From assembly GCA_937924755.1 (NCBI GenBank), contig CALEVZ010000028.1:1-64000 (forward strand): a stretch of DNA of 64,000 bases, in the 5' to 3' direction. The position numbers and the translations under genes are program-made. How positions within the stretch are numbered: the stretch's first letter is position 1; each line of letters begins with the position of its first letter. The DNA comes from an uncultured bacterium. GTDB lineage: Bacteria; Acidobacteriota; Thermoanaerobaculia; Thermoanaerobaculales; Thermoanaerobaculaceae. Shown one piece after another: positions 34,012-51,159 of this stretch. Below the pieces are notes generated by a model. That model was not told the origin of the DNA, did no database searches, and was given only the letters and a program-made list of their open reading frames with translations.

Positions 34012-35454
34012 ATGAGCCCGGCCCTTCGTTTTCAGCGGGTCAAGATCATGGCCTCCCTGGGCCCCGCCTCGGCCGCGGTGGACACCGTCGCTGCCATGGC
34101 CGAGGCGGGCGCGGACGGCTTTCGCATCAACGCCTCCCACGCCCCACCCGGGCAGTTCGCCCAGCTGGTGGACCTGGTGCGCGAGGCCGAGCGCGCCACC
34201 GGTCGACCCCTGGCGGTGCTGTGCGACCTGCCCGGCCCCAAATTGCGGGTCCACCCCGAGGCCGCGGAGCGATCCGTGAGCACCGGGGAAGAGCTCCAGA
34301 TCGGCCCCCCTGGCAGCGGCGCCGCCGTCCCCGTGGAGGGGTTCGACCCGGTGGGTGAGCTGGCGGTGGGCCACCGCGTTTTGCTGGGGGACGGCCTGCT
34401 CTCCCTCACAGTGGTGGCGCACCGCCCCCCCTTGGCGGTGGTCACGGCCAGCGGTGCTGGTCGCATCGCCCCGCGCATGGGGGTCAATCTACCCGACGGC
34501 GAGACCTCCCTCCCCTCCCTCGGCCCCCGCGATCTGGCGGCGCTGGAGGCCGCGGTGGCGGCCGGCGTGGACGTCTTTGCCCTCTCCTTCGTGCGCCGCG
34601 CCGCCGACGTGGCGGAGCTGCGCCAGCGGCTGGCCTCCCTGGGCAGTGGAGCTCCCATCGTGGCCAAACTGGAGAAGGCGCAGGCGGTGCAGCCGCCCGA
34701 GCTCGAAGCCATCGTGGCCGCCAGCGACATGGTGATGGTGGCGCGCGGGGATCTGGGCGCCGAGACCTCCCCCGAGCGGGTGCCGGTGCTGCAGAAATCC
34801 ATCCTGCGCCTGGCCCGGCACCGGGGGGTGCCGGCGATGATCGCCACCGAGATGCTGGAGAGCCTCACCCGCTCGACTCGCCCCACCCGTGCCGAGGCCT
34901 CCGACGTGGCCAACGCCGTGTACGACGGCGCCGACACCCTGCTGCTTACCGCCGAAACCGCCATCGGTCCCCACCCGGTGCTAGCGGTGGAAACCTGCGC
35001 CCGCCTGGTGGCCGGGGCCGAGGCCCACCCCAGCTTCGCCGTCCGCTGGGGACCTCCCGCCACCCCGGCCGGCACGGGAGGCGAGCTGGTGGCCGACGCC
35101 GTGGCCCGCGCCGCCGTGGTGGCCGCCGCCGAGGTGGGGGCGGCGGCCATCGTCTGCTTCACCACCTCCGGGCGGACCGCCCGGTTGGTAGCCCGCTACC
35201 GCCCCGGGGTCCCCATCCTGGGCCTCACCCCCCACCCCGCGGTGGCCCGGGCCCTGGCGCTGGTGTGGGGGGTGGAGCCGCGCTTGACCACCGGCGCCCC
35301 GCCGGAGCACGAGGGCGTGGTGGCTCTGGCCGAGACCGAGGCGGCCGCCCACGGGCTGTTGTCGCCCGGGGGGATCATCGTCATCACCCACGGCGCCCCG
35401 CTGGGCGAGCGCCCCGTAACCAACCTGCTCCGCATCAATTCTTACCGTGTCTGA
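34012..35454 (+). CDS. pyk: Pyruvate kinase
   Basis: A 480-residue pyruvate kinase (phosphoenolpyruvate + ADP to pyruvate + ATP). The catalytic barrel has KIMASLGPAS, RINASHA in place of the usual RINFSHG-type segment, DLPGPKLRV, ALSFVRRAADV, VAKLEKAQAV, MVARGDLGAE and TEMLESL-type IATEMLESLTRSTRPTRAEA with SDVANAVYDGADTLLLTAET. The C-terminal allosteric domain includes FTTSGRTARLVARYRP and a final NLLRINSYRV. The Phe-to-Ala change in the NFSHG segment is shared with other short deep-branching enzymes and probably neutral. There is no strong ribosome-binding site, and the gene is well separated from the Rrf2 operon. Confidence 0.93.
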   Translation: MSPALRFQRVKIMASLGPASAAVDTVAAMAEAGADGFRINASHAPPGQFAQLVDLVREAERATGRPLAVLCDLPGPKLRVHPEAAERSVSTGEELQIGPPGSGAAVPVEGFDPVGELAVGHRVLLGDGLLSLTVVAHRPPLAVVTASGAGRIAPRMGVNLPDGETSLPSLGPRDLAALEAAVAAGVDVFALSFVRRAADVAELRQRLASLGSGAPIVAKLEKAQAVQPPELEAIVAASDMVMVARGDLGAETSPERVPVLQKSILRLARHRGVPAMIATEMLESLTRSTRPTRAEASDVANAVYDGADTLLLTAETAIGPHPVLAVETCARLVAGAEAHPSFAVRWGPPATPAGTGGELVADAVARAAVVAAAEVGAAAIVCFTTSGRTARLVARYRPGVPILGLTPHPAVARALALVWGVEPRLTTGAPPEHEGVVALAETEAAAHGLLSPGGIIVITHGAPLGERPVTNLLRINSYRV

Positions 35455-35485
35455 CGGGACAACCTCGCAGGAGGTGGGGGAGGGC

Positions 35486-35515
35486 TTGACAGGCCGAGTT
35501 GGCCTATTCTAGAGT
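35486..35515 (+). promoter_or_regulatory. Promoter of the Rrf2/molybdoenzyme operon
   Basis: TTGACA at 35486-35491; the best -10 at allowed spacing is TAGAGT (35510-35515, 18-base spacer). It overlaps the first arm of the inverted repeat at 35506. Transcription should start around 35522, so the leader would be only about 14 bases and lacks a clear ribosome-binding site. Confidence 0.6.
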
Positions 35516-35537
35516 TCTGGATCGGGAACTCCAGAAT
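35506..35537. promoter_or_regulatory. Rrf2 operator: 12-bp inverted repeat over the -10 box and start codon
   Basis: ATTCTAGAGTTC (35506-35517) and GAACTCCAGAAT (35526-35537) are inverted copies with one mismatch around an 8-base centre. The left arm covers the predicted -10 box; the right arm ends in the first two bases of the start codon (ATG at 35536). The long dyad form resembles Rrf2-family operators. It is the expected binding site of the regulator encoded immediately downstream, so bound protein would block transcription of the whole operon. Confidence 0.85.
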
Positions 35538-35976
35538 GTTGTCCACCACCGCCGCTCACGCCGTTCGTGCCCTCTTGTGCCTCACCCGTCAGGCCGTCGA
35601 CGCCCCGGTACTGGCCAAAGACCTGTCGGCCTGCGCCCAGGTGCCCATGAGCTACCTCTCCAAGATCCTCGCCATCCTTACGCGCGCCGGCCTCCTGCAG
35701 GCGGCGCGGGGCCTCAACGGAGGCTACCGGCTGGCGCGGCCCGCCGATCAGATCACCCTCTTCGAGGTGGTGGAGCTCTTCGACGGCCCGCAGAGTCAGG
35801 CGACGTGCCTGCTCGGGCCGCTGCACCACTGTTCCGACGACGACCCCTGCCCGGCTCATGGGCGCTGGCGGGGCGTGCGTGACACCTACCTGGAGTTTCT
35901 CCGCACCGTCACCCTCGACCAACTGCGCGGCCCCTTGCCGTGGGCGGCGACAGCGGCCACCGGGGAGTCGTCGTGA
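35536..35976 (+). CDS. Rrf2-family Fe-S transcriptional regulator
   Basis: A 146-residue regulator heading the operon. The winged helix is in residues 1-75 (STTAAHAVRALLCLTRQAVD, VPMSYLSKILAILTRAGLLQ and RGLNGGYRLARPADQITLFE). Three cysteines, C91, C99 and C105 (CLLGPLHHCSDDDPCPAHGRW), have the spacing of Rrf2 proteins that bind [2Fe-2S] or [4Fe-4S] clusters and sense redox state, NO or iron-sulphur supply. Its own start is inside the operator palindrome. The stop overlaps the next start (GTGA), so it is co-translated with the energy-metabolism genes it presumably controls. Confidence 0.9.
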   Translation: MLSTTAAHAVRALLCLTRQAVDAPVLAKDLSACAQVPMSYLSKILAILTRAGLLQAARGLNGGYRLARPADQITLFEVVELFDGPQSQATCLLGPLHHCSDDDPCPAHGRWRGVRDTYLEFLRTVTLDQLRGPLPWAATAATGESS

Positions 35977-37895
35977 GCGCCCGCTCTCACCCGCCGCTGC
36001 GCGTTGCCGTGCCCGGGGAGGGGTACCACCGGGACCTGATTTCCTGCCAGCAGGGCTGTCCGGTGCACACCGACGCCCGCGGCTACGTGCGCGCCATTGC
36101 CGCCGGCCGCTTCGAGGAGGCGTACCTGATCGCCCGCGGCCCCAACCCCTTCGCCTCCATCTGCGGGCGGGTATGCGGCGCGCCGTGCGAGGCCGCCTGT
36201 CGCCGCGGTCGCATCCCCCGGGTCGACGAGAGCGGCGCCTGGCTTGGCGACGATCGTCCCATCGCCATCCGCGCCTTGAAGCGCTTTGCCTGCGAACGAC
36301 ACGGGGTTGACGCTCACCCCCCGGAGGCGGTGTGGGAGGCGGTGCGCTCGTTCATCCCGGAGGTGGCGGCGGACGCCGAGGAGCTGGCCGCCCTGCTGCA
36401 CACCCGGGCCAGCCAGTTGCCGCGCGCCGGCGGCGAGCGGGTCGCCATCATCGGCGCCGGGCCGGCGGGGCTGTCGGCCGCCCATGATCTGGCCCTTCTG
36501 GGGTTTTCCCCCGTCGTCTTCGAAAGCGAGCCGGTGCCCGCCGGCATGCTCTACCTGGGGGTGCCGGCGTACCGCCTGCCGAGGGAAGTGATCCGCCGGG
36601 AAGTGGCGGTGATCGAGGCGCTGGGGGTGGAGATCCGCTGCTCTACCACGGTCGGCAAGGATGTTTCGTTTGCTCAGCTGCGCCGGGAGTTCGCCGCGGT
36701 GATCGTGGCGGTGGGGGCCAAGCGTTCGCGGTCGCTGGGGCTGCCCGGGGAGCACGGGCCGGGGGTGTTCGGGGGCGTCGATCTGCTGCGGGCGGCGGCT
36801 CTCGACCAGCCGTTCGAGCTGGGCTCGGAGGTGGTGGTGATCGGTGGCGGCAACGTCGCCTACGACGTGGCCCGCACCGTACTGCGGCAGGCCGCCTATG
36901 ACACCGCCCGCACCGCGGCCCGCCTGCCCGGGGTGCGGCGGGTACGCCTGGTGGCCCTGGAAACCCTCGAGGAGATGCCCGCCGACACGGTGGAAATCCT
37001 GGAAGGAGATGAGGAAGGGGTGGAGCGCCTGAACGGCTGGGGCCCGGTGGAGATCCTGCGGGACGACGGCCAGGTGAAGGGGGTGCTGTTTTGTCGCTGC
37101 CTCAAGGTGTACGACGAGCAGCGTCGCTTTTCGCCGGTGTTCGACCACTCCGACCGCCTCACCGTGCCCGCCGACACCGTGTTGCTGGCGGTCGGACAGA
37201 CCACCGAGCTGGGCTTCCTCGCCGACGGCGGGGCAGACGTGGAGCAGGCGCGCCCCGGGTGGCCCAAGGTGGATCCGGAGACACTGGCGACGAGCGCCCC
37301 CGGCGTCTTCGTCGCCGGCGACCTGGCCCACGGCACACGGCTGCTCATCGACGCGGTGGCCTCCGGCAAGCGTGCCGCCCGCTCGGTGTACCAGTACGTT
37401 ACCAGGCGCACCCTGCGGGCAGACTGGCATCAGGTGTTCGTCAAGCTGCCGGGATACGCCCGTGAGCTGGGGTACGAGGCCATCCCTCGGCACGATGTTC
37501 CCACCCTGCCCCCCGGCGACCGCCTCGCTGATCACACGGCTCTGGTGGAAATCGGCTTCAACCAGGAGGCGGCGCAGCGGGAGGCTTCCCGCTGCCTGGA
37601 CTGCGGAGTCACGCCGGTCTTCGACGGTACCCGCTGCGTGCTGTGTGGTGGCTGCGTCGACGTCTGCCCCACCGCCTGCCTGAAACTGGTGGCCCTCGCC
37701 GACCTCGAGCCGTCCCCAGCCCTGGCGGAGGTCGTCCGCTGGGCGCTCGGCGACGGCGTGGAGCCCGGCGAGCACTCCGCCATCCTCAAGGACGAGGATC
37801 GCTGCATCCGCTGCGCCCTGTGCGTCATGCGTTGTCCCACCGAGGCCATCGCCATGGAGCGCGTCACCTTCACCTGCCACTGGAGGGTTGCATGA
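35973..37895 (+). CDS. GltD-like NAD(P)/FAD oxidoreductase with extra [4Fe-4S] domain
   Basis: A 640-residue flavoprotein. The N-terminal Fe-S region matches the glutamate synthase small subunit (GRFEEAYLIARGPNPFASIC, then GRVCGAPCEAACRRG). The FAD site is VAIIGAGPAGLSAAHDLALL, the NAD(P) site VVVIGGGNVAYDVARTVLRQ, and PGVFVAGDLAHGTRLLIDAV is the second FAD motif. A C-terminal dicluster ferredoxin (CVLCGGCVDVCP and CIRCALCVMRCP) is added. No glutamine amidotransferase or synthase large subunit is nearby. Directly ahead of Rieske and cytochrome b genes, it probably links NAD(P)H or ferredoxin to that complex. Similar genes accompany Rieske/cytochrome b clusters in anammox bacteria, as I recall. 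Confidence 0.88.
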   Translation: MSARSHPPLRVAVPGEGYHRDLISCQQGCPVHTDARGYVRAIAAGRFEEAYLIARGPNPFASICGRVCGAPCEAACRRGRIPRVDESGAWLGDDRPIAIRALKRFACERHGVDAHPPEAVWEAVRSFIPEVAADAEELAALLHTRASQLPRAGGERVAIIGAGPAGLSAAHDLALLGFSPVVFESEPVPAGMLYLGVPAYRLPREVIRREVAVIEALGVEIRCSTTVGKDVSFAQLRREFAAVIVAVGAKRSRSLGLPGEHGPGVFGGVDLLRAAALDQPFELGSEVVVIGGGNVAYDVARTVLRQAAYDTARTAARLPGVRRVRLVALETLEEMPADTVEILEGDEEGVERLNGWGPVEILRDDGQVKGVLFCRCLKVYDEQRRFSPVFDHSDRLTVPADTVLLAVGQTTELGFLADGGADVEQARPGWPKVDPETLATSAPGVFVAGDLAHGTRLLIDAVASGKRAARSVYQYVTRRTLRADWHQVFVKLPGYARELGYEAIPRHDVPTLPPGDRLADHTALVEIGFNQEAAQREASRCLDCGVTPVFDGTRCVLCGGCVDVCPTACLKLVALADLEPSPALAEVVRWALGDGVEPGEHSAILKDEDRCIRCALCVMRCPTEAIAMERVTFTCHWRVA

Positions 37896-38386
37896 GCACC
37901 GCCCACCCCTCGCTTCCCCGCCGCTCTCGCCTGGACCCCGAGCCGGTGGCGCGTCGGGATTTCTTGGGCCTGGCCGCCCTGTGGTCCGCCGCCGCCGCGC
38001 TGGGCTTCGCCGCCCTGGGCGCCCTGCGCCTGCCCAAGGCGGCGGTGTTGCCTTCGCCGTCGAAGAAGTTCCGCGTCCATCTGCCGGAGTCCCTGGCGCC
38101 GGGGGAGGCCTACGTTCCTCCGGGGCGGTCGGTGGCGCTGTTCAAGGGCGCCGACGGCGTGTTCGCCATTTCCACCGTGTGCACGCACCTGGGCTGCATC
38201 GTCAAGCCGACTCCGCACGGCTTCGACTGCCCCTGTCACGGCTCCCGGTTCGCCCCCGACGGCTCGGTGGTGCGTGGCCCGGCACCGGCGCCGTTGCCCT
38301 GGCTGGCGGTCACCTCGGCAGGGGGGGGCAGCGTCATCGTCGACGAGGGAGCCAGCGTACCCCCGGGTACCAAGGTGGCGGTATGA
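37892..38386 (+). CDS. Rieske [2Fe-2S] protein
   Basis: A 164-residue Rieske protein. A Tat-like or anchoring N-terminus (LDPEPVARRDFLGLAALWSA) includes RRDFLG and one transmembrane helix. The Rieske fold has both cluster motifs, CTHLGCI and CPCHGSRF, with the conserved disulphide cysteines between them, and a C-terminal strand end. The four ligands (two His, two Cys) are intact, implying a high-potential cluster working with the adjacent cytochrome b. ATG overlaps the flavoprotein stop (ATGA). Confidence 0.93.
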   Translation: MSTAHPSLPRRSRLDPEPVARRDFLGLAALWSAAAALGFAALGALRLPKAAVLPSPSKKFRVHLPESLAPGEAYVPPGRSVALFKGADGVFAISTVCTHLGCIVKPTPHGFDCPCHGSRFAPDGSVVRGPAPAPLPWLAVTSAGGGSVIVDEGASVPPGTKVAV

Positions 38387-39933
38387 GCGCCAGGTCTTCC
38401 GACGACGGTCTCGCCCGACTCTGGGCCAACCTGCGCGCCGCCCCCCGCCGGCTGCGGGAAACCATGTTCCGCTCCGGCCCACCGGTGAGCGACCGCGCCC
38501 GCTCTTCCTTCATCTTCGGCAACGTCTTCCTGCACCTGCACCCGGCGAGAGTGCACCGCTGGAGCCTGCGTTGGGCCACCACCTGGGGACTGGGGATGAT
38601 CGCCCTGTCGGCGTTCCTCGTCACCCTCGTCACCGGCGTCCTGCTCATGTTCTACTACAAGCCCTACCCCGACGTGGCCTACGAGTCGATCAAAAACATC
38701 CACTTCGTCGTGCCCACCGGGCGGTTCATGCGCAACATCCACCGCTGGGCGGCGCACGTCATGGTCATCGCCGTGCTGGCGCACATGGCGCGGGTGTTCT
38801 TCACCGCCGCCTACCGCCGGCCGCGCGAGTTCAACTGGCTGATCGGCATGGGGTTGCTGGTGACCACCCTGGGGCTTTCCTTCTCCGGCTACCTGTTGCC
38901 CTGGGACCAGCTGGCCTACTGGGCCATCACCATCGGCGCCAACATCGCCCAGTCGCCGCGCGAAATCACCGATGCACTCGGGATCACGGCCTCGTTCGAC
39001 CCGGGGGGGCTGCAGAAACTGCTGCTGCTGGGCTCCGACGAGGTCGGCGAGGAAGCGCTGATCCGCTTCTACCTCTTCCACGTCATGCTGTTGCCGCTCA
39101 TCCTGGTAGCCCTCCTGGCGGTGCATTTCTGGCGCATCCGCAAGGACGGCGGACTGGCTCGTCCCGCCGACGCCGAGGCCCGTCTGGGGCCGCCGCACCC
39201 GGCCACCTATCCCGTTTTCACCGAGGCTCCCCAGAAGACCTACCACCTGGCTGCCGTCGTGCGGGGGCGCACCCCGGCGGTGGGCAACGGCCCGGAGGGT
39301 ACCGTCCCGGCCATGCCCCACCTCCTCTACGGCGAGCTGGCGTTGTTCATGCTGACCGTGGGCATCTGTCTCGTCCTGTCCGTCCTCTTCGACGCCCCCT
39401 TGAAGGAACTGGCCAACCCGGCGGTGCCGGAGAATCCCGCCAAGGCCCCCTGGTACTTCTTGGGCCTGCAGGAGTTGGTGTCCTTCTCCGCCTTCATGGG
39501 GGGCATCGGCATTCCCACCATGGTGCTCATCGGTCTGGGCCTGATCCCCTACCTGGACCGCGAGGAAGCGGGCACCGGGGAGTGGTTCGGCGGGCCCGGG
39601 GGCGGCGCCCTGGTGGGCCGGGCGGCGGTGTTCGGACTCACCACGGCGGTGGCCCTGGAGGCCTTGGCCATCCATTTTGGGTGGTTGCGGCAGTGGTGGC
39701 CGGAGGTGCCGCAACTGCTCATCACCGCCTTCAATCCAGGAACGGTGCTGACGGCCATCTACGCCGCCTACTCCCTGTGGCTGGTGCGTCGCCACAACTC
39801 CACCCGGGCCGGCGCCCTGGGGCTTTTCACCTGTTTTCTCGCCGGCTTCGTGGTGCTCACCGTGATCGGCACCTACTTCCGCGGCCCCAACTGGGAGTTC
39901 TACTGGTCCCCGACCCACTGGCCCGGACATTAG
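38383..39933 (+). CDS. Cytochrome b6/subunit IV fusion of a Rieske/b complex
   Basis: A 516-residue di-haem membrane cytochrome. The first half carries two haem-ligand pairs: NIHRWAAHVMVIAVLAH (H-x13-H) and FHVMLLPLILVALLAVH (H-x14-H, the b6-type spacing). GYLLPWDQLAYWA is the quinone-site helix. The second half has NPAKAPWYFLGLQE in place of the PEWY motif. The length shows b6 and subunit IV fused in one chain. It should oxidise or reduce quinone and exchange electrons with the Rieske protein. The ATG overlaps the Rieske stop (ATGA). Confidence 0.93.
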   Translation: MSARSSDDGLARLWANLRAAPRRLRETMFRSGPPVSDRARSSFIFGNVFLHLHPARVHRWSLRWATTWGLGMIALSAFLVTLVTGVLLMFYYKPYPDVAYESIKNIHFVVPTGRFMRNIHRWAAHVMVIAVLAHMARVFFTAAYRRPREFNWLIGMGLLVTTLGLSFSGYLLPWDQLAYWAITIGANIAQSPREITDALGITASFDPGGLQKLLLLGSDEVGEEALIRFYLFHVMLLPLILVALLAVHFWRIRKDGGLARPADAEARLGPPHPATYPVFTEAPQKTYHLAAVVRGRTPAVGNGPEGTVPAMPHLLYGELALFMLTVGICLVLSVLFDAPLKELANPAVPENPAKAPWYFLGLQELVSFSAFMGGIGIPTMVLIGLGLIPYLDREEAGTGEWFGGPGGGALVGRAAVFGLTTAVALEALAIHFGWLRQWWPEVPQLLITAFNPGTVLTAIYAAYSLWLVRRHNSTRAGALGLFTCFLAGFVVLTVIGTYFRGPNWEFYWSPTHWPGH

Positions 39934-39942
39934 AGGACGATC

Positions 39943-41676
39943 ATGCCTGCTCCCCACCCCTCGCCTTCTGCCACCCCACCCCGGTCAGCGCGTGGCGTGA
40001 CCTCGCACGCCAACAAAATCCTGCTGCTAGTGTCCTCCCTTGCCACCTTGGTGGTGCTGGGGTGGGCGGCCTTGGAAGAAAACCTCCTGCGCGACTGGCG
40101 GGTGATTCAGCGCAACTACGCTGCCGCCCTGCCCCCCGACGCCAAGGCCAGCTTCAACCCCCAGTTGCGGCAAATCATCGTCCCCGCGCTTCGGACCACC
40201 GACCGCTGCGTCACCTGCCACCTGGGTATGGCCCCCGGCGAGCAGGTGGTTCCGGGGCAGCGGCTGTTCGCGGCTCACCCACCCATTCCCCACGACCCGG
40301 GCGAGTTCGGCTGCGTGGTCTGCCACGGCGGCCAGGGCCTCGCCAGCGAGACCGCCGACGCCCACGGCACGGTGCCCCACTGGCCGGAGCCCCTGGTGCC
40401 GCGGCGCTACGCCCAGGCGGGGTGCGGGAGTTGCCACACCCACCTGAGAGTGCCCAATCTGGAACAGCTCCGCCTGGGTCAGGCGCTGCTCGAGCGGTAC
40501 GACTGCCTCGCCTGCCACGCGGTCGACGGCCGCGGCGGCACCCTCCGCCCCGGGGGTGCGGCGGGGTTGCCGGCGCCGGACCTCACTCTGGTCGGCGCGC
40601 GCGGCTACGACCCCGGTTGGTATGCGGGCCACCTCCGGTCGCACGCCGCCGCCGCGGCGGGACCGTGGCGCACCTCCTTCCGGCCGATCCCCGACGATGA
40701 GCGCGGCGCGCTGGCGGCTTTTTTGGACTCGCGCGTCGGCGCGCCCCAGCTCATCGAGGCCAAGGCGCTGTTCCACTCCCTGGGGTGCCGCGGTTGCCAC
40801 AAGGTGGGGGGGGTTGGCGGCGACGACGGTCCGGACCTGACAATCGCCGGCCAGCGCGACCCGGGCCAGACCTCCTTTGCCGGCGTGCCGGGGGAGCGGA
40901 GCCTGGCCCACTGGTTTGCCGAGCACTTCCGCAATCCCTCGGCGGTGGTGGCGGGCTCGCAGATGCCCGCCATGGGCTTGAGCGAAGAGGAGATCGACGC
41001 CCTTGTGCTGTTCACCTTTTCGTTGCGCCGCAGCCCGTTCCCGGAGGCGTACTGGCCCCGCGACCGTATCCGCTCCGAGCGCTTCGGCGAGCGGGAGTTC
41101 GCCACCGACGGCGCGACTCTCTACGGGACCTTCTGCGCCGCCTGTCACGGGCGTTCGGGGGAAGGGATGCGCTACCCCGGCATGACACCCTTTCCGGCCA
41201 TTGCCAACCCCGACTTTTTGGCCCTCGCCTCCGACGAGTTCTTGACCGCCGCCATAACCCGCGGCCGCCCCGGCCGGCGCATGCCCGCCTGGGGGGTAGG
41301 GGAGGGCGGCCTGCGCCCCGCCGAGATTGCCACCCTGGTCAACTGGCTGCGAAAGTCTTCGGGTGTTCAGCCCGAAAGAGATCCTCGCCCCCCGCGCTGG
41401 GTGAGGGGCGAAAGGAGCGAGGGCGAGCGGCTCTACCGAGCCGCCTGCAGCGGCTGCCACGGCCCCGCCGGAGAGGGGGCGGAGGGACCCGCCCTGGCCA
41501 ATCCGGTGTTCCTGTCCACCGCCTCGGATACTTACCTCGTGGAAACCATCGCCCGGGGACGACGCGGCACCACCATGGAGGGATTCACCCGCCCCTCCCC
41601 CACCCGCCGCGCCCTGGCCAGCTATGAGATTCACACCATCGTCGCCTTCATCCGTACCTGGGAGGCCAAGCCATGA
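39943..41676 (+). CDS. Membrane-anchored seven-haem cytochrome c
   Basis: A 577-residue protein with an N-terminal transmembrane anchor ([20 protein letters not shown], about residues 27-46) and seven CxxCH sites: CVTCH, CVVCH, CGSCH, CLACH, CRGCH, CAACH and CSGCH. The last three lie in class I cytochrome c-like modules (for example [14 protein letters not shown] and [13 protein letters not shown], with Met-rich distal stretches [11 protein letters not shown] and GTTMEGF). It replaces cytochrome c1 or f of a bc complex and should carry electrons between the Rieske/b part and the molybdoenzyme. Its stop overlaps the alpha-subunit ATG. Confidence 0.92.
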
Positions 41677-44600
41677 CCCCACCTCGACCGTCCCGCCGTC
41701 AATTCCTGAGCTCCGCCGCCGCGGCCGGTTTCGCCGGCTTCATCGCCTCCGCCACCCGGGCGTGGGGCCTGGGGGCCCTGGACAACCCTCTCGCCCACTA
41801 CCCGGACCGCGACTGGGAAAAGGTGTACCGCGACCTCTACAAATACGACGAAGTGTTCACCTTCCTTTGCGCTCCCAACGACACGCACAACTGCTTGCTC
41901 AATGCCTACGTGCGCGCGGGGGTAATCACCCGCATCGGTCCTACCATGAAGTACGGGCTGGCAACCGACTTGGACGGCAACCGCGCCTCCCACCGCTGGG
42001 ACCCGCGGGTGTGCCAGAAGGGGCTGGCCTTGACGCGGCGCTTCTATGGCGACCGGCGGGTGCGCCACCCCATGGTGCGCAAGGGGTTCAAGGCCTGGGT
42101 GGAGGCGGGCTTCCCCCGCGGCGCCGATGGCAAGCCCCCCAAGGAGTACTTCAACCGCGGCCGGGACGAGTGGGTTCGAGCCAGCCACGCCGAGGCGGCA
42201 GGCCTGGTGGCCGCCGCCCTGCATGACATCGCCGCCACTTACTCCGGTGAAGAGGGAGCGGCGAGGCTGCGCCGCCAGGGGTACGACGAGGAGATGATCG
42301 CCGTCATGAAGGGGGCAGGCACGCAGACCTTGAAGCTGCGAGGCGGCATGCCTCTTTTGGGGATCACGCGGGTGTTCGGCCTCTACCGCATGGCCAACAC
42401 CCTGGCGCTGCTGGACGCCCATATCCGGGGCATCGGTCCTGATGCGGCGCTGGGTGGACGCGGGTTCGACAACTACTCCTGGCACACCGACCTGCCGCCC
42501 GGCCACCCCATGGTAACCGGCCAGCAGACCGTGGAGTTTGACCTCAACGCCATCGAGCACAGCAAGATCGCCGTCATCTGGGGGATGAACTGGATCACCA
42601 CCAAGATGCCCGACGCCCACTGGCTCACCGAGGCGCGCCTGCAGGGCACCAGGATCGTGGTGATCGCCTGCGAGCTCTCGGCCACCTGCTGCAAGGCCGA
42701 CGAGGCCATCGTCGTGCGCCCCGGCACCACCCCGGCGCTCGCCCTCGGGCTGGCGCACGTAGTGATGCGGGAGCGCCTCTATGACGCCAGCTACGTGCGC
42801 CGCTTCACCGACCTGCCCTTGCTGGTGCGCTCCGACACCCTAGCCTACCTGCGCGCCGCCGACGTCTTCGCCACCCCCCCCAGCCCCCTCGCCAACCAGA
42901 CCAAGGTCCTGGCGAAGGGGGAAAAGGCGCCCCCCCCCGGCGTGCACAACGACATGCTCCTGCCCGCCGGCATGCGCGCAGAGTGGGGGGACCTGGTGTG
43001 GTGGGACCGCCGCGCCAACGCTCCCCGGGCCATCACCCGCGACCAGGTGGGCAAGCTGTCTCCGGTGGACGATCCGCTCCTGGAGGGGGCGGTGGACGTG
43101 CCCCTGGCGGCCGGGGGCACGGTGCGCTGCCGGCCTGTGTTCGACTTGCTCAAAGAATACACTGCCCACTTCGACCCCAAGACCGTGGAAGAGCTCACTT
43201 GGGCACCGGCGACGGCGGTGGAGCGGTTGGCGCGAGAAATTGCCGCCGTGCCGGGGCACACCCTGTTCGCCACCGGCATGGGGCCCAACCAGTTCTTCAA
43301 CAACGACAACAAGGACCGCGCCATCCTCCTGCTGGCTGCCTTGACCGGCAACATCGGCCGGCTGGGGGGCAACGTCGGGTCCTACGCCGGCAACTACCGC
43401 GTCGCCCTGTTCAATGGCGCCCCCCAGTACATCAACGAAAACCCCTTCGAGCCCGAGCTGGATGCCTCCAAGCCCGCCAAGGTGAAACAGTTCTGGCGCG
43501 CCGAATCGGCCCACTACTACAACCACGAGGACCACCCCCTGCGGGTGGGCCACCGCCTGCTCACCGGCAGCACTCACATGCCCGCCCCCACCAAGGCCAT
43601 GTGGTTCGCCAACGCCAACTCCATTCTGGGCAACGTCAAGTGGCACTACAACACGGTGATCAACGTGCTGCCCAAGATCGAAATGATCGCCGTCAACGAG
43701 TGGTGGTGGTCGGCCTCCTGCGAGTGGGCGGACGTGGTGTTCGCGGTGGACTCCTGGGCCGAGCTCAAGCATGCGGACATGACCGCTTCGGTCACCAACC
43801 CCTTCCTCAACGTCTTCCCCCGAACCCCGCTGAAGCGCATTTTCGAAACCATAGGGGACATCGAGGTTTTAGCGCTGGTGGGGGAAAAGCTCGCCGAGCG
43901 CACCGGCGATCGGCGCTTTGCCGACGCCTGGAAGTTTGTCCGGGAGGGGCGCACCGAGGTGTACCTCCAGCGGGTGCTGGACGCCTCCTCCAACACCCGC
44001 GGCTGGCGCATCGCCGAGCTGGAGGCCAAGGCCAAGCAAGGCATCCCGGCCATCATGCAAAATCGCACCTACCCCAAGGCGGTGGGGTTCGAGCAGGTGG
44101 AGGACTCCCGCCCCTGGTTCACCAAGTCGGGGCGGCTGGAGTTCTACCGCGAGGAGCCGGAGTTCATCGAGGCTGGCGAAAACCTGCCCGTGCACCGGGA
44201 ACCCATCGACTCCACCTTCTACGAACCCAACGTCATCGTCGCCCCGCCCATGGAGGTCATCCGCCCCGCCGGGCCGCGCGACTACGGCGTCGAGGACGAC
44301 GATCTCTCCTGCGAGGTGCGCCAGGGACGCAACGTGGTCAAGCCGTGGGCGGCGGTGAAGCAAACCGCCCACCCTCTGGCCAAGGAAGGCTACCGCTTCA
44401 TCTTTCACACCCCCAAGTACCGCCACGGTGCCCATACCACTCCCATCGACACCGACCAGATCGCCGTCCTGTTCGGCCCCTTCGGCGACATCTACCGGCG
44501 CGATGCCCGCTCCCCCTGGGTGGGGGAGGGGTACGTGGACATCAACCCCGACGACGCCCGCGAGCTGGGGATCGACGACGGCGACTACGTGTGGATCGAC

Positions 44601-45128
44601 TCCGACCCCTCCGATCGCCCCTTCCGCGGCTGGCAGAAGGACCGGCGCAACGCGGGATTTTCCCGGCTGCTGTGTCGCGCCCGCTTCTACCCCGGCACCC
44701 CCCGCGGGGTGACCCGCATGTGGTTCAACATGTACGCGGCCACCCCCGGCTCCCACGAGGGGCATACCACCCGCCCCGACGGTTTGGCCCGCAACCCCCG
44801 CACCGGCTACCAGGCCATGTTCCGCTCCGGTTCCCACCAGTCTGCCACCCGCGGCTGGCTCAAACCCACCTGGATGACCGATTCCTTGGTGCGCAAGGGA
44901 CTGTTTGGACAGGAGATCGGCACGGGGTTCCTGCCCGACGTACACTGCCCCACCGGCGCGCCGCGCGAGGCCATCGTCAAAATCACCCGCGCCGAGCCCG
45001 GCGGCCTGCAGGGCAAGGGGCGCTGGCGGCCGGTGGAACTGGGCTTGCGCCCCCGCTACGAGAACGAGGCGATGCGCCGCTACCTGGCCGGCGCCTTCGT
45101 CACCACCACCTCGGGAAAGGAAGGGTAA
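41673..45128 (+). CDS. Molybdopterin oxidoreductase alpha subunit, NarG/NxrA-like, Tat-exported
   Basis: An 1151-residue bis-MGD enzyme of the type II DMSO reductase group. Residues 5-30 are a Tat signal ([20 protein letters not shown]), so catalysis is periplasmic. The FS0 cluster region is [16 protein letters not shown] with later C114: ligands would be C66, D70, C74 and C114, Asp taking the place of the second NarG cysteine, preceded by N69 like NarG Asn52. The molybdenum ligand motif is [19 protein letters not shown] (D273). The closest relatives by motif are nitrate reductase/nitrite oxidoreductase alpha subunits. The substrate (nitrate or nitrite, selenate, chlorate or other) is not fixed by the sequence. 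Confidence 0.9.
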
Positions 45129-45132
45129 CGCC

Positions 45133-46260
<1,128 letters not shown>

Positions 46261-46279
46261 TCGGCAAGGAGAGCAAACC

Positions 46280-47128
46280 ATGCGCACCCTAGTCACCGTT
46301 GTTCTGGTCTTCCTCGTCATCGGCTGCGGAAGCAAGCCCCAGGCTCCCCTGCCCGAAGTCACCGCTTTCGCCCGCCCGGCGCTCCCCCAGGGATGCGAAG
46401 ACCCAGCCTGGCGGAGTGTGCCCGCCCACGTGGCGCCGTTGCTGCTGCAGGACCTGGTAGAGCCCCGGCAACTGGTCGCCACCACCGCGGCGGTCACCGT
46501 GCAGGCGGTGCATGACGGCTCCCGGGTCGCCTTCCGCCTCAGCTGGGCCGATCCCACCCACGACGATTCGCCCGGCGCCGCCCGGTTTTCCGACGCCTGT
46601 GCCGTGCAGCTACCCGCCGTCGCCGGCGCCGACCTGCCGGCTCCGCAAATGGGAGAGACCGGCCGCCCGGTGGAAATCACCGCCTGGCGGGCCTCTTGGC
46701 AGGCCAGCGTGGACGGTCGGGGGGACGACATGACCGCCCTCTACCCCCGGGCTCAGGTGGACCACTACCCCTTCACCGCGCCCTCCCTCGCGCCCGGCTC
46801 GCCGGAGCAGGAGGAGATGGCCCGCCGTTACGCCCCTGCCCGCGCCCTGGGCAACCCCATGGAGGGGCCCCGCAGCAGCCCGGTGGAGGACCTCGTCGCC
46901 GACGGGCCCGGAACCCTGCGACCCGCCCCCCGGGCGATGTCCACCGGCTCCGGCCGGCGCACCCGCGACGGCTGGACGGTGCAGCTCGTCCGGCCGCTGC
47001 CGGCGGGCGTCAGACCGGGGCAACGGGGGGCGGTGGCCTTCGCCGTCTGGGATGGGTCCCACGAAGAGGCCGGAGCGCGCAAGATGCGCACCGGCTGGGT
47101 GCCGCTGGCCATTGGCGAGGGCTCGTGA
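46280..47128 (+). CDS. Haem b gamma subunit, ethylbenzene-dehydrogenase-like lipoprotein
   Basis: A 282-residue periplasmic lipoprotein. The lipobox VFLVIGC gives a lipidated Cys16. The body matches the EbdC/ClrC/SerC haem-binding family: FRLSWADPTHDDS, QMGETGRPVEITAWRASWQ with candidate axial Met124, and a C-terminal AVWDGSHEEAGARKMRTGWV with candidate axial Lys268, as in the known Met/Lys-ligated haem b of EbdC. It would take electrons from the beta subunit to the multihaem cytochrome. The lipid anchor is unlike soluble EbdC and keeps the complex near the membrane. Confidence 0.83.
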   Translation: MRTLVTVVLVFLVIGCGSKPQAPLPEVTAFARPALPQGCEDPAWRSVPAHVAPLLLQDLVEPRQLVATTAAVTVQAVHDGSRVAFRLSWADPTHDDSPGAARFSDACAVQLPAVAGADLPAPQMGETGRPVEITAWRASWQASVDGRGDDMTALYPRAQVDHYPFTAPSLAPGSPEQEEMARRYAPARALGNPMEGPRSSPVEDLVADGPGTLRPAPRAMSTGSGRRTRDGWTVQLVRPLPAGVRPGQRGAVAFAVWDGSHEEAGARKMRTGWVPLAIGEGS

Positions 47129-47670
47129 GCGCATCGCTCCTCGCCGAAGCGGCGGCCTGGCGCCTGCTCTCCTGCCTGCTGGAGCGACCGCGTCAAGGCT
47201 GGCGGGAAGACATCCGGGCGCTCGCCGCCGAAGTTCCAGATGCGCCGCTCGCCTCCGCCGCCCGCCGGGTCGCCGAAGAGGGCAGTGAGGGCGCCTACCT
47301 CGCCGTCTTAGGACCGGGAGGACCCGTGTCGCCGCGCGAGGTGGCTTACCACCCCGATCGCGACCCGGCGACCATCCTGGCGCGGCTGCACACTCTCTAC
47401 CACGCCTTTGGCTTTCGGCCGGCGAGCGAAGACCCCCCCGATCACATCGCCGTGGAGCTGGGGTTCGGAGGCTTTCTGGCCCTCAAGCGGGCGTGGGTCA
47501 TCAGCCAGGGGGATGAGACGGCCCTGGCCACCGTGGAGTCGGCAGCCGAGCTTTTTCGGCGCGAGCACCTGGACCCCTTTGCCGCCGCCCTCGGTCAGCG
47601 GTTGGCCGCCGCCGACGGCTATCTTGCTTCCGTGGGGAGGGCTCTGCAGACGGTCAGCCGGATCGGTTGA
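47125..47670 (+). CDS. TorD/NarJ-like molybdoenzyme chaperone
   Basis: A 181-residue all-helical protein predicted to insert the cofactor and proofread the Tat signal of the alpha subunit. Weak but consistent TorD-family features are LLAEAAAWRLLSCLLERPRQ at the start, LHTLYHAFGFRP and DHIAVELGFGGFLALKRAWV (the conserved E-x3-(F/M) segment), and FRREHLDPFAAALGQRL. GTG start overlaps the gamma-subunit stop (GTGA). Position between the enzyme genes and moeA supports the call. Confidence 0.85.
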   Translation: MSASLLAEAAAWRLLSCLLERPRQGWREDIRALAAEVPDAPLASAARRVAEEGSEGAYLAVLGPGGPVSPREVAYHPDRDPATILARLHTLYHAFGFRPASEDPPDHIAVELGFGGFLALKRAWVISQGDETALATVESAAELFRREHLDPFAAALGQRLAAADGYLASVGRALQTVSRIG

Positions 47671-47702
47671 GCCGGACCACCGGGGACGGTAGTCTTTCGC
47701 CC

Positions 47703-48926
47703 ATGGTTTCCTTCGACGACGCCCGGGCCCTGTTGGCCAGCCGCGTCCAACCGCTGGCGGCGGCGCTCCGACCCCTGGCGGCGGCGCTGGGGTGCCGCCT
47801 GGCGGCGTCACCCCACGCCGCCGTGGACTACCCTGCCGCCGACGTCTCGGCCATGGACGGCTACGCCGTGCGGGGGGCCCAGCTGCCCGGGGAGTTCGGG
47901 GTGGCCTTCACCGCTTCGGCGGGGCATCCACCGAGTGCATTGCCGGCCGGGGCGGCCGCCCGCATCTTCACCGGTGCTCCCCTCCCGGTGGGGGCGGACA
48001 CGGTGGTGGTCCAGGAGGTCGCCGAGACGCTGGAGGGAGGTCGGGTGCGCCTGCCCGCCACCGCCCCGGGCGCCAACGTCCGCCGCCAGGGGGAGGTGTT
48101 CGCCGGCGGGACGGCGATCGCCGCGGCGGCGGAGGTCCTCACCCCCGCCCGCCTGGCCCTGCTGGCGGCAGCCGGGGTGGCGGACGTTGTGGTCACCCCC
48201 CGCCCCCGCCTGGGCCTGCTGGTGACGGGAGACGAGCTCACCCCTTTGGGGCAGCCGCTGGCGTTCGGCCACCTGTACGACTCCAACGGCCCCATGCTGG
48301 CGGCCCTGGCGGCGGAGGCGCACCTGGAGGTGACGGCGGTGCACCGGGTGGGGGACGAGCCGGTAGCGCTGCGGCAGGCCTTGGCGGGGCTGGCCGGCCA
48401 CTGCGACCTGCTGCTCACCTCCGGGGGGGTTTCGCAAGGAGAGCGGGACCTCCTGCCCCACCTCCTCCCCGAGTTGGGGGCAGAGCTGGCCTTCCACAAG
48501 GTGGCCATGCAGCCGACCAAACCCATCCTGGTGGCTCGCCTCCAGAACACCTGGGTGGTTGGGCTGCCCGGCAACCCGGTTTCCGCTCTGGTGGGGTGGC
48601 GCCTGTTCGCCCGCCCCCTGGCCGAGGCCCTGGCCGGCGACCGCCGGGCGTTCGCCGAGCGCCCACTCGCCGCCACCCTCGCCGCCCCCCTGGCCAGCCC
48701 CGCCAAGCGCCTGCTCCTCCGACCCGCCCGGGTGGCTTGGACGGGCACCCGCTGGGAGGTGGAGGTGATCCCCTGGCAGGGCTCGCACGACCTGGCCGCC
48801 GCCGCCCCCGCCACCGCCCTGGCCCGTCTGGAGCGGGGGCAAGGGGCCGCCGCGGGGGAGGTTGTGGCGGCTTACCCCCTTCCCTGGCCTGAATGGAACA
48901 TCGGTACCCGAGGCGTCGATGGGTAA
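47703..48926 (+). CDS. moeA: Molybdopterin molybdenumtransferase
   Basis: A 407-residue MoeA that inserts molybdate into adenylated molybdopterin. It has the PAADVSAMDGYAVRGAQLPG segment, FTGAPLPVGADTVVVQEVAE, LLVTGDELTPLGQPLAFGHL, YDSNGPMLAALA, LLLTSGGVSQGERDLL and KVAMQPTKPILVARLQNTWV with GLPGNPVSA. The ATG at 47703 is used; a TTG at 47667 overlapping the chaperone stop would couple translation and adds 12 residues. Being the second-last gene of the molybdoenzyme operon, it supplies a dedicated cofactor pathway. Confidence 0.93.
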   Translation: MVSFDDARALLASRVQPLAAALRPLAAALGCRLAASPHAAVDYPAADVSAMDGYAVRGAQLPGEFGVAFTASAGHPPSALPAGAAARIFTGAPLPVGADTVVVQEVAETLEGGRVRLPATAPGANVRRQGEVFAGGTAIAAAAEVLTPARLALLAAAGVADVVVTPRPRLGLLVTGDELTPLGQPLAFGHLYDSNGPMLAALAAEAHLEVTAVHRVGDEPVALRQALAGLAGHCDLLLTSGGVSQGERDLLPHLLPELGAELAFHKVAMQPTKPILVARLQNTWVVGLPGNPVSALVGWRLFARPLAEALAGDRRAFAERPLAATLAAPLASPAKRLLLRPARVAWTGTRWEVEVIPWQGSHDLAAAAPATALARLERGQGAAAGEVVAAYPLPWPEWNIGTRGVDG

Positions 48927-49479
48927 TGCGCACGGCGACAACCTTTTCCCGCTCATGAGCGCGGCGGTGCTCACCGTCTCCGACCGCTGCAGCGCCGGCA
49001 CCGCCGTGGACACCGCCGGGCCGGCCGCCGCCGCCCTCCTGCGCCAGTCGGGAGCCCAGGTGGTGTGGACGGGACTGGTGCCCGATGAAGCGGCCGTCAT
49101 CGCCGAGCGGCTGGTGGACCTTTGCCGGGACGGGATCGACCTGGTGCTGACTGTGGGGGGCACCGGCTTCGGTCCCCGGGACGTCACCCCCGAGGCCACC
49201 CGGGGGGTGCTGGAGCGGGAGGCGCCGGGCCTGGCCGAGGCCATGCGCCTGGGCTCCTCCGCCTCCACCCGCCGCGCCTTTCTCTCCCGGGCCGTTGTCG
49301 GGGTGCGGGGGTGCACCCTGATCGTCAACCTGCCCGGCAGCGAGGGGGCGGCCCGGGAAAATCTCCAGGCCATCCTGGACCTGCTCCCCCACGCGGTGGC
49401 CATGCTGCGGGGGGCGGCGCATTCCCACCTCGATTCACCCCGACCAGCGCCCACCGGCTCAGGGGAACAGCGGGGGTAG
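48919..49479 (+). CDS. mog: Molybdopterin adenylyltransferase-like protein (Mog/MoaB)
   Basis: About 186 residues; the MoaB/Mog fold activates molybdopterin with ATP before MoeA. Signature stretches are SAAVLTVSDRCSAGTAVDTA, LVLTVGGTGFGPRDVTPEAT and GVRGCTLIVNLPGSEGAARE. The start at 48919 overlaps the moeA stop and has GAGG upstream; ATG 48955 gives the more usual N-terminus and is equally possible. This is the last gene of the operon. Confidence 0.88.
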   Translation: MGNAHGDNLFPLMSAAVLTVSDRCSAGTAVDTAGPAAAALLRQSGAQVVWTGLVPDEAAVIAERLVDLCRDGIDLVLTVGGTGFGPRDVTPEATRGVLEREAPGLAEAMRLGSSASTRRAFLSRAVVGVRGCTLIVNLPGSEGAARENLQAILDLLPHAVAMLRGAAHSHLDSPRPAPTGSGEQRG

Positions 49480-49504
49480 AATCCCTCCCCCCGAGGAGGC
49501 GACC

Positions 49505-50899
49505 GTGACCTTTCCCCCCTTCGAGCCCTACCGCAGCCGGGTAGTGGAGCCCATCCACCTGACTACCCCCGAAGAGCGCGCTGGCCACCTGGCCGAGGCC
49601 GGCTATAACCCCTTTCTGCTCAAGGCGGAGCAAGTGATGATCGACCTCGTGACCGACTCCGGAACCTCGGCGTTGTCCGTGGCCCAGTGGGCGGCCATGC
49701 ACGGCTCCGATGAGTCGTTCACCGGCTCTGCGAGCTTCGAGCGCTTTGCGGCGGCGGCCCGGGAACTCTTCGGGCACCCCCACATCATCCCCTGCCACCA
49801 GGGGCGGGCTGGCGAGCACCTGCTGGCCCGGGCGGTTCTGCACCCCGGGGATGTGGTGCTGGCCAACACCCTTTTCGCCACCACCCGGCAAAACTTCGAG
49901 GAGGCCGGGGCTCACTGCCAGGACCTGCCGATCGCGGAGGCTCTCGACGTGGGCAGCCGCCACCCCTTCAAGGGCAACATTCACCTGGAGCGTCTGGCCG
50001 ACTACCTCTCCCGGCGCGAGGAGGCGGTCAAGCTGGTGGTCCTCACCGTCACCGACAACGCCCGCGGCGGCCAGCCGGTCTCCCTGGCCAACCTGCGCGC
50101 GGCCGCCGAGTTGTGTGCTCGCCACGGCGCCCCTCTGTGGCTGGACGCCGCGCGGGTGGCGGAGAACTGCTATCTCATCCGGGAGCGGGAAGAGGGGCAG
50201 GGTGACCGCGCTCCGGTGGAGGTCGCCCGGGAGGTGTTCTCCCTGGTGGATGGCCTCTTCATGAGCATGAAGAAGGACGGCCTCGGCAACGTGGGCGGGG
50301 TGATCTCCTGCCGCGATGCCGCCTGGGCCGAGGCCATTCGCTCCCGCCTGCTGGTCTCCGAGGGGATCCCCACCGCCGGGGGCCTGGCCGGCCGCGACCT
50401 GGAGTGCATGCGGGTGGCCCTCCACGAAATGTTCGACACAGCCCACCTGGCGTGGCGGGTGGGGGCCACCCAGCGCTTCGCCCAGCTCCTGCTCGCCGGC
50501 GGCGTACCGGTGCTGGAGCCGGTGGGGGCCCACGCCGTCTACGTGGACGGCCGCGCCTTTTGCCCCCACCTCCCCGACGAGCAGTTCCCCGCCTGGTCCC
50601 TCTCCGCCGCCTACTACCTGGCCAGTGGGGTGCGCAGCTGGGAGTCGGGCAACGTCACCTACGGCCGCCTGGACCCCGTCACCGGCCGCTGGCGCTGGCC
50701 GGAGCTCGATCTGCTGCGCCTGGCCATCCCTCGCCGGGTGTACTCCGACGCCCACCTGGCCTTCGCCGCCCGGGCCCTGGTGGAGCTCCACGCCCACCGC
50801 CAACGGGTACGGGGGCTGCGTTGCACCTACCGACCCCCGGCTCTGCCCCAGTTCATCGCCCGCTTCACCCCCGTGGAGAGCGGCGATGGGGTAGCATAG
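49505..50899 (+). CDS. Tryptophanase/tyrosine phenol-lyase-like PLP beta-eliminating lyase
   Basis: A 464-residue PLP enzyme of the tryptophanase family, with YNPFLLKAEQVMIDLVTDSG, FGHPHIIPCHQGRAGEHLLA, LTVTDNARGGQPVSLANLRA, PLWLDAARVAENCYLI and the PLP-Lys segment FMSMKKDGLGN (probably K257). The family's catalytic Tyr (E. coli Tyr74 of tryptophanase, in the DExYxGSR segment) is Phe72 here (DESFTGSASF), and the following Arg is also missing. Substrate may therefore not be tryptophan or tyrosine. GTG start with GAGGAGG upstream, 26 bases after mog. Confidence 0.83.
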   Translation: MTFPPFEPYRSRVVEPIHLTTPEERAGHLAEAGYNPFLLKAEQVMIDLVTDSGTSALSVAQWAAMHGSDESFTGSASFERFAAAARELFGHPHIIPCHQGRAGEHLLARAVLHPGDVVLANTLFATTRQNFEEAGAHCQDLPIAEALDVGSRHPFKGNIHLERLADYLSRREEAVKLVVLTVTDNARGGQPVSLANLRAAAELCARHGAPLWLDAARVAENCYLIREREEGQGDRAPVEVAREVFSLVDGLFMSMKKDGLGNVGGVISCRDAAWAEAIRSRLLVSEGIPTAGGLAGRDLECMRVALHEMFDTAHLAWRVGATQRFAQLLLAGGVPVLEPVGAHAVYVDGRAFCPHLPDEQFPAWSLSAAYYLASGVRSWESGNVTYGRLDPVTGRWRWPELDLLRLAIPRRVYSDAHLAFAARALVELHAHRQRVRGLRCTYRPPALPQFIARFTPVESGDGVA

Positions 50900-50913
50900 G
50901 GACGGGGGACACC

Positions 50914-51123: not shown

Positions 51124-51159
51124 GTCGGCGTTATCCGCCGCGCTCGGGGGGAGGGCCTA

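Follow-up and report, generated by a model that had tools for sequence, protein, structure and literature searches.

A stretch of 64,000 nucleotides from an uncultured bacterium of the family Thermoanaerobaculaceae (Acidobacteriota; assembly GCA_937924755.1, contig CALEVZ010000028.1, positions 1 to 64,000; here called the window) carries a gene cluster that combines a molybdoenzyme of the nitrite oxidoreductase (NXR) family with a Rieske/cytochrome b complex and a GltD-like NAD(P) flavoprotein. Open reading frames, codon-position composition and family scans place eleven packed genes on the plus strand at 35536-49479, in the order rrf2, GltD-like flavoprotein, Rieske protein, cytochrome b, seven-haem cytochrome c, alpha, beta, gamma, chaperone, moeA and mog. 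An earlier reading made from the letters of this DNA alone (the sequence-only reading) had named these parts, and reading frames and family scans find every one of them at its place and on that strand. It had counted thirteen or so genes, where there are eleven, or twelve if one includes a beta-eliminating-lyase gene, presumably of the tryptophanase type, which follows on the plus strand at 49505-50899, 25 bases past mog. Upstream of the cluster lies a pyruvate kinase gene. The features are as follows.

35486..35515, plus strand: candidate promoter-like site, TTGACA-18-TAGAGT, the single sigma-70-like site in 35300-51200
35536..35976, plus strand: Rrf2-family regulator with Cys91, Cys99 and Cys105 (PF02082, 8.5e-31)
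35973..37895, plus strand: GltD-like FAD/NAD(P) flavoprotein with N-terminal Fer4_20 and C-terminal [4Fe-4S] motifs (Pfam, NCBIfam)
37892..38386, plus strand: Rieske [2Fe-2S] protein with a twin-arginine-like N terminus (PF00355, 8.5e-10; CTHLGC...CPCHGS)
38383..39933, plus strand: cytochrome b, a b6-like part fused to a subunit IV-like part (PF13631, PF00033, ExtP/ExtQ models)
39943..41676, plus strand: seven-haem c-type cytochrome with a hydrophobic N terminus (seven CXXCH)
41673..45128, plus strand: NXR-family molybdoenzyme alpha subunit with a twin-arginine signal (904.6 bits to 7b04)
45133..46260, plus strand: beta subunit, an iron-sulfur protein with 17 Cys, start ATG 45133 (PF13247, 1.4e-29; TIGR03478 below cut-off)
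46280..47128 (or from 46250), plus strand: gamma subunit, an EbdC-like haem b lipoprotein (PF09459, 3.9e-23)
47125..47670, plus strand: TorD/NarJ-type chaperone (PF02613, 7.9e-8; TIGR03482 below cut-off)
47667..48926 (start TTG 47667 or ATG 47703), plus strand: moeA, a local addition (MoeA_N, MoCF_biosynth, MoeA_C)
48919..49479 (start 48919 or 48955), plus strand: mog/moaB-type molybdopterin-binding protein, a local addition (PF00994, 1.4e-30)

The genes are mostly joined by the ATGA and GTGA overlaps that had been noticed before. GTGA links rrf2 to gltD and gamma to the chaperone, while ATGA links gltD to the Rieske gene, the Rieske gene to cytochrome b, and the seven-haem cytochrome to alpha. 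To these come gaps of 9 bases between cytochrome b and the seven-haem cytochrome and of 4 bases between alpha and beta. Depending on the start chosen, gamma overlaps beta (46250) or follows it after 19 bases (46280), a TTGA overlap ties moeA to the chaperone (TTG 47667), and mog overlaps moeA (48919). The start of the GltD-like gene, GTG 35973, was set from its GTGA overlap; an in-frame GTG also occurs at 35940. The promoter-like site begins at 35486, the very base at which the interval of the sequence-only reading starts; it is a candidate only, because 0.6 such sites are expected by chance in the interval in which the one was found.

The alpha subunit and the nitrite oxidoreductase family

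The best solved match of alpha is 7b04, 'Nitrite oxidoreductase subunit A', which it matches at full length over residues 7-1143. The next solved chains score no higher than 179.5 bits; they are 4ydd and 5e7o, which we take to be the perchlorate reductase PcrA, followed by EbdA and NarG. An assignment to the NarG, PcrA or EbdA type was rejected, as these matches fall far below that to 7b04. The score against the family model for type II DMSO reductases (TIGR03479) is 300.8 bits, short of its cut-off of 984.75, and alpha is likewise far below the NCBIfam cut-off for NarG.

This kinship extends to the cofactor ligands. In the NXR of Kuenenia, the iron-sulfur cluster FS0 of the alpha subunit is bound by C67, D71, C75 and C115, Asn70 is placed for the substrate, Asp275 binds Mo, and the haem b of the gamma subunit is held by a Met and a Lys (PMC8387239). 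The 3Cys/1Asp set is kept as C66, D70 and C74 in 72 of 76 relatives (the other four are gapped here) and as C114 in all 76. The substrate Asn, N69, occurs in 72 of 76, again with four gapped, and the Mo-ligand Asp, D273, in 76 of 76. In gamma, the likely haem ligands (numbered from 46250) are M134, found in 50 of 50 relatives, and K278, found in 49 of 50. The 3Cys/1His pattern of NarG is absent; C66 stands where NarG has its His, and D70 serves as second ligand. No protein scanned matched the dihaem NarI of NarGHI, and the third subunit is a lipoprotein of the EB_dh type. Judged by its sequence, alpha is an NXR-family enzyme.

Where in this family does it stand? Among 297 genomes of an Acidobacteriota sample there are 39 alpha matches at E < 1e-40. 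Of these, 22 are of the window kind, with identities of 69-100 per cent and with fragments counted; another 16 lie at 40-46 per cent, and G118 alone lies at 60 per cent. We call the 40-46 per cent group canonical NXR because one of its members scores 1757.6 bits against 7b04. A comparison of alpha subunits by phylogeny, which the sequence-only reading had proposed, was made as a quick tree of 37 rows; NarG, PcrA and EbdA, proposed for the same comparison, were compared through the solved-chain matches given above. In the tree, the window clade is sister to canonical periplasmic NXR and not nested in it (SH-aLRT 99 and 98). The rows are 22 of the 80 relatives described below, the window, a row for Thermogutta, the locus L020, nine canonical sequences and three distant outgroup sequences, without the alphas of Nitrotoga, Hydrogenobaculum and Methanoperedens; 23 relatives had been chosen, and L122 was dropped as no alpha reading frame was picked up there. 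L020, from a relative of the same order (G025), has an alpha at 60 per cent identity whose long branch attaches at the base of the operon clade, with no Rieske/b genes in 9.6 kb upstream. On this tree the linkage to Rieske/b genes needs two changes, with linkage set by hand as absent for L098, L128, L020 and the canonical rows.

Conservation of the cluster across phyla

A scan of GTDB contigs returned 365 relatives of alpha, the best 80 of which were kept for comparison of their loci. Going by their titles, these come from Acidobacteria, Planctomycetota, Deltaproteobacteria, Myxococcota, Verrucomicrobiae, Poribacteria and Abyssobacteria; two carry the name Acidimicrobiia, one of them apparently an Acidobacteriota genome. 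The gene-neighbourhood check suggested by the sequence-only reading gives a clear picture: gltD, Rieske, cytochrome b and seven-haem cytochrome genes precede alpha, in this order and on the same strand, in 53 of the 55 loci with at least 7 kb upstream, and beta, gamma and chaperone genes follow in 60 of the 61 loci with enough downstream DNA. The two exceptions upstream, L098 and L128, have no such four-gene set before alpha. Conservation to this degree goes beyond a chance grouping of genes. At three loci (L118, L119, L126) a more diverged GltD-Rieske-b set, with GltD at 43-44 per cent, adjoins an alpha of the same clade.

The pairing can also be followed within the Acidobacteriota sample. 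A cytochrome b of at least 70 per cent identity is present in 20 of the 22 genomes with an alpha of the window kind and in none of the 275 others. Around the canonical alphas L036-L046, the stretches fetched contained no match to gltD, Rieske or cytochrome b. Within the cytochromes, H120/H134 and H233/H248, the ligands of the cytochrome b haems, as well as an additional H51, are kept in 61 of 61 relatives, and the first Cys of each of the seven CXXCH motifs, whose number agrees with the earlier count, is present in 58 or 59 of 59. Conservation across phyla supports the idea, already voiced in the sequence-only reading, of a single redox chain from quinone to periplasm with an NAD(P) module.

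The outer genes fare differently. Matches to moeA and mog lie near the cluster in just one of the 80 relatives, with mog there on the opposite strand; both were rejected as core members and are better seen as additions made locally than as parts of the system, for which they had been taken. The Rrf2 regulator, present upstream in the window as had been described, precedes the cluster in 21 of 55 relatives. Among 22 relatives of the regulator itself, C91 and C105 are found in all and C99 in nine.

Relationship to the anammox complexes

The closest counterparts of the upstream genes come from anammox bacteria. Kuenenia has two complexes that contain a Rieske protein, a b6-like cytochrome b, a subunit IV, a multihaem cytochrome c and an NAD(P) oxidoreductase, with Rieske potentials of +303 and +335 mV (Hauser et al., PMC12954380). 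In the model proposed there, the electrons of quinol are split between a high-potential acceptor and NAD(P)+; the passages on these complexes state that their precise role is unclear and that for Kustd1480-1485 no driving reaction has so far been proposed.

The best solved matches of the window Rieske protein are 9rk4 and 9rk3, which we take for the two anammox Rieske proteins of that study. For alignment we used two Kuenenia-type clusters from a genome in which 9rk4 has a 100 per cent match. Compared with the b6 part of the window protein, the cytochromes b of these clusters show 47 and 49 per cent identity. The proposed ligands of a haem b at the dimer interface, His43 of Kuste4571 and His62 of Kustd1481, both align with H51. 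An R-x-R-K motif of cytochrome b, proposed to partner the haem propionates, is present in 57 of 61 relatives and aligns with both Kuenenia-type proteins. In the GltD-like protein the Arg equivalent to Arg550 of Kustd1483 is kept, and the best solved match is 9bov/9bp5 (268 bits), an entry also found for Kuste4570 (PMC12954380). On the strength of these alignments, the Rieske/b-GltD part is homologous to the NAD(P)-linked complexes of anammox bacteria. A Ser/Phe pair in the Rieske protein was considered as a diagnostic feature and rejected, since it also occurs in two complexes with no GltD nearby.

Probable nitrate reduction, and Thermogutta terrifontis

Does the enzyme reduce nitrate or oxidise nitrite? 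One genome of the Pirellulales (L077; the order of G337), apparently Thermogutta terrifontis R1, has its genes from gltD to the chaperone arranged as in the window, and seven haem motifs as well as the FS0 and Mo-Asp motifs are present; the 19 kb stretch read there gave no match to rrf2, moeA or mog. T. terrifontis R1 grows anaerobically with nitrate, and its genes THTE_1509-1506 have been assigned to NarG, NarH, NarI and TorD, with adjoining 'cytochrome b/c1' genes THTE_1510-1512 (PMC5673643). The other two PF00384 hits in the L077 genome are TtrA-like and NuoG-like, both below cut-off, so that by PF00384 alpha is its only candidate for a nitrate reductase.

A second line of evidence comes from NrfA, for which we counted strong matches (E < 1e-40, a threshold chosen after seeing the list). 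The Acidobacteriota sample has them in 17 of 22 operon carriers, in none of 16 carriers of canonical NXR and in 61 of 259 other genomes; counted by family, the figures are 11 of 13 for the operon against 0 of 11 for canonical NXR. G118, with its 60 per cent alpha and no strong NrfA, stands among the 259, and including it would bring the operon clade to 17 of 23. In a Pirellulales sample all 4 carriers have NrfA, as do 3 of the 25 genomes with canonical NXR alone (Fisher p 0.0015); among these three, the NrfA of G363 has internal stops. G345, which has both types of alpha, is counted as operon type. The genome of the window also has NrfA.

The sequence-only reading had allowed for nitrite oxidation with NAD(P) reduction as well as for oxyanion reduction. 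With the Thermogutta genome and the presence of NrfA in Acidobacteriota and Pirellulales samples, nitrate reduction is favoured over nitrite oxidation, and we think it quite likely from these sequence comparisons that the operon enzyme is a periplasmic nitrate reductase.

The same module beside other terminal enzymes

The GltD-Rieske-b module is also found next to different enzymes. At four loci of the Acidobacteriota (L147:1333-11899, L148, L149, L150) a sister operon joins GltD, Rieske, cytochrome b and a six-haem cytochrome c to a PcrA-type alpha and a beta subunit, with gamma- and chaperone-sized genes and a cytochrome b at 59-60 per cent identity to that of the window. The L147 alpha scores 984 bits against 5e7o and lies above the TIGR03479 cut-off; family scans cover alpha and beta of L147. 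L148-L150 were assigned here from layout and weak matches, and the L150 locus breaks off before GltD.

At four further loci (L151:544-10377, L152, L164, L168) GltD, Rieske, cytochrome b and a five-haem cytochrome c lie directly upstream of an N2O reductase gene, a nosZ of the Sec-dependent type; NosZ is above cut-off in each, and L151 also has NosD. Rieske, cytochrome b and seven-haem cytochrome c genes accompany cbb3-like genes and a GltD-like gene at L160:1104-9153 and L154, where CcoN (both) and CcoO (L160) are below their cut-offs; L161-L163 were placed here by layout. QrcC- and DsrP-like genes lie at the GltD locus L166, and at L159 a cytochrome bd-like gene is some kilobases away. At the GltD loci L157, L158 and L165 the neighbours tested matched no known terminal-reductase family.

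A proposed electron path and its alternatives

From the DNA itself one can read which parts are present, which residues bind their cofactors, that their order is conserved and what they are homologous to. On balance it seems probable that they form a periplasmic nitrate-reducing system, in which the NXR-family alpha-beta-gamma enzyme would be wired to a (mena)quinol-oxidising Rieske/b complex with an NAD(P) flavoprotein on its cytoplasmic side. Quinol would be oxidised at the Qo site, from where one electron would pass through the Rieske cluster, the seven-haem cytochrome, the haem b of gamma and the iron-sulfur clusters of beta to the Mo site. There nitrate would be reduced to nitrite, and in many carriers NrfA could convert this further to ammonium. 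By analogy with the anammox proposal, the other electron might travel over the b haems and the dimer-interface haem, with H51 as a ligand, to the GltD-like subunit and form NAD(P)H. This direction at the flavoprotein is a tentative suggestion on our part.

Several observations weigh against this picture. The window GltD lacks the equivalent of Arg511 of Kuste4570, and the Cys that binds haem c_N in both Kuenenia-type cytochromes b aligns with a Gly; among the 60 of 61 relatives in which a pattern tally could read this column none has Cys, and two have one a column earlier. Because two complexes that have no GltD nearby (L155, L156) contain H51 too, this residue is not specific to the NAD(P) linkage. 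In L020, L098 and L128 the roughly 10 kb upstream of alpha contain no Rieske/b genes. On the side of the terminal enzyme, nitrite oxidation is the reaction of canonical alpha-family members, and the Kuenenia NXR works both ways (PMC8387239). Strong NrfA matches occur in just 9 of 26 carriers tested mostly outside the Acidobacteriota (9 of 25 when L060, apparently an Acidobacteriota genome, is set aside), so the NrfA link is not general, and the idea that NrfA is universal in carriers was rejected. Finally, the window genome encodes on the same contig (G000:C28:144529-145851, locus L138) a NapA-like protein, at 694 bits against a NapA cut-off of 904, and the operon is thus not its only nitrate-reductase candidate.

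How do other explanations compare? The flavoprotein might run in reverse, oxidising NAD(P)H and passing the electrons through cytochrome b and quinone to nitrate; the system would then be a nitrate reductase supplied by NAD(P)H. The cofactors, arranged from FAD over [4Fe-4S] to the haems of cytochrome b, permit both directions. The NAD(P)H-oxidising one has been judged wasteful for Kuenenia, which makes NADH dehydrogenases (Hauser et al., PMC12954380), and most of the partners identified for the module are terminal enzymes of high potential, as bifurcation needs; we regard this reversal as unlikely.

An enzyme that oxidises nitrite in the periplasm and sends electrons in reverse, over the seven-haem cytochrome and then the Rieske/b complex, to quinone and NAD(P)+ would suit the family membership of alpha and the bidirectional Kuenenia enzyme (PMC8387239). 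Suarez et al. have read Planctomycetota genes of the clade that holds NXR and T. terrifontis as putative NXR (PMC10732223). The Thermogutta genome, the association with NrfA and the separation from the canonical clade speak against this, and by general bioenergetics a large proton motive force would be required to drive electrons uphill from +420 mV across a Rieske/b complex. Nitrite oxidation by the operon enzyme is in our view quite improbable. This matters for such surveys, in which the wider clade including T. terrifontis figures as putative nitrite oxidoreductases (PMC10732223): for its Rieske/b-carrying part the evidence points to nitrate reduction.

That the flavoprotein and Rieske/b genes are mere neighbours serving the general respiratory chain would agree with the GltD loci whose tested neighbours gave no known-family terminal reductase (L157, L158, L165), yet the order kept in 53 of 55 loci and the cytochrome b found in 20 of 22 alpha carriers against none of 275 other genomes make it very improbable. 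Enzymes of the wider type II family use chlorate, perchlorate, selenate or hydrocarbon substrates, and the alpha of the sister operon is close to 5e7o/4ydd. That alpha acts on such a substrate, nitrate being incidental, is still highly improbable in view of its full-length kinship with nitrite oxidoreductase, its 300.8 bits against the TIGR03479 cut-off of 984.75, and a conserved Asn that is Ile in ethylbenzene dehydrogenase (PMC8387239).

Returning to nitrate reduction driven by quinol, the distribution of the module invites a wider and more doubtful generalisation. GltD-linked Rieske/b complexes could be widespread, oxidant-driven generators of NAD(P)H, each paired with a high-potential terminal enzyme, with the nitrate version in T. 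terrifontis. The electrons of menaquinol would be split, the high-potential half paying for the reduction of NAD(P)+. The partner would be the NXR-type nitrate reductase here and elsewhere the PcrA-type enzyme, N2O reductase, a cbb3-like oxidase or the HAO-like protein of anammox bacteria. In several phyla, and apparently in the isolate T. terrifontis too, a defined terminal enzyme adjoins the module; if so, the proposal of NAD(P)H formation made for anammox bacteria would be testable in culture.

Comparison with known systems

With the NXR-ABC of Kuenenia (7b04) the system shares full-length homology of alpha, the 3Cys/1Asp FS0, the substrate Asn, the Mo Asp and an EbdC-like gamma with Met and Lys; it differs in that alpha forms a separate clade, at about 43 per cent identity to the canonical group, and is coupled to Rieske/b-GltD. 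Kuste4569-4574 and Kustd1480-1485 likewise cluster Rieske, b6-like cytochrome b, multihaem cytochrome c and a GltD-like NAD(P) protein, with the proposed extra haem ligand. In the window, by contrast, the b6 and subunit IV parts are fused, the haem c_N Cys is lacking, the cytochrome has seven haems and the partner is an NXR-family enzyme, where theirs is an HAO-like protein (PMC12954380).

Thermogutta terrifontis has the same core genes and order at THTE_1506-1512, if our genome is indeed R1. The relevant passages on these genes describe a cytoplasmic Nar near complex III and mention neither GltD, nor seven haems, nor the kinship to NXR (PMC5673643). Haloarchaeal nar clusters also hold Rieske/b genes with a nitrate reductase, and the NarG of Methanoperedens is pseudoperiplasmic with a twin-arginine (Tat) signal; unlike the window, no GltD-like subunit is mentioned in the passages on these systems, and in Methanoperedens the Rieske/b genes are in a separate cluster (PMC4683180). 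In Caldithrix abyssi a Nap cluster combines a nitrate reductase with Rieske, cytochrome b and multihaem cytochrome genes, but the enzyme is of the NapA type and its description there mentions no GltD-like gene (PMC5317091).

The open-access literature searched, as far as its text was accessible, held no description of the NXR-Rieske/b-GltD combination. The view of the sequence-only reading that the system is undescribed is only partly right: NarGHI-type genes next to 'cytochrome b/c1' genes had already been noted, in passages that mention no flavoprotein, no seven haems and no relationship to NXR (PMC5673643). What is new is the fixed combination of NXR-family enzyme, Rieske/b and GltD, its spread, and an isolate in which, apparently, it is testable.

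Further genes near the operon

Equal-length reading frames at 13550 and 16512 of the window had suggested a repeat; they encode a phasin and a rubrerythrin, no inverted repeat was found there, and the candidate was rejected. Among the relatives, a small membrane-protein gene recurs at 13 of 80 loci by clustering (L117:3717-4247 and relatives); its representative, which has no Pfam match, sits between alpha and beta in L117. Two other clusters of genes are found near the operon, one of ScdA/hemerythrin type (14 of 80 loci; L105:17972-18724) and one of Crp-like regulators (13 of 80; L125:1200-2024), each named from one scanned representative. Both would fit nitrosative chemistry.

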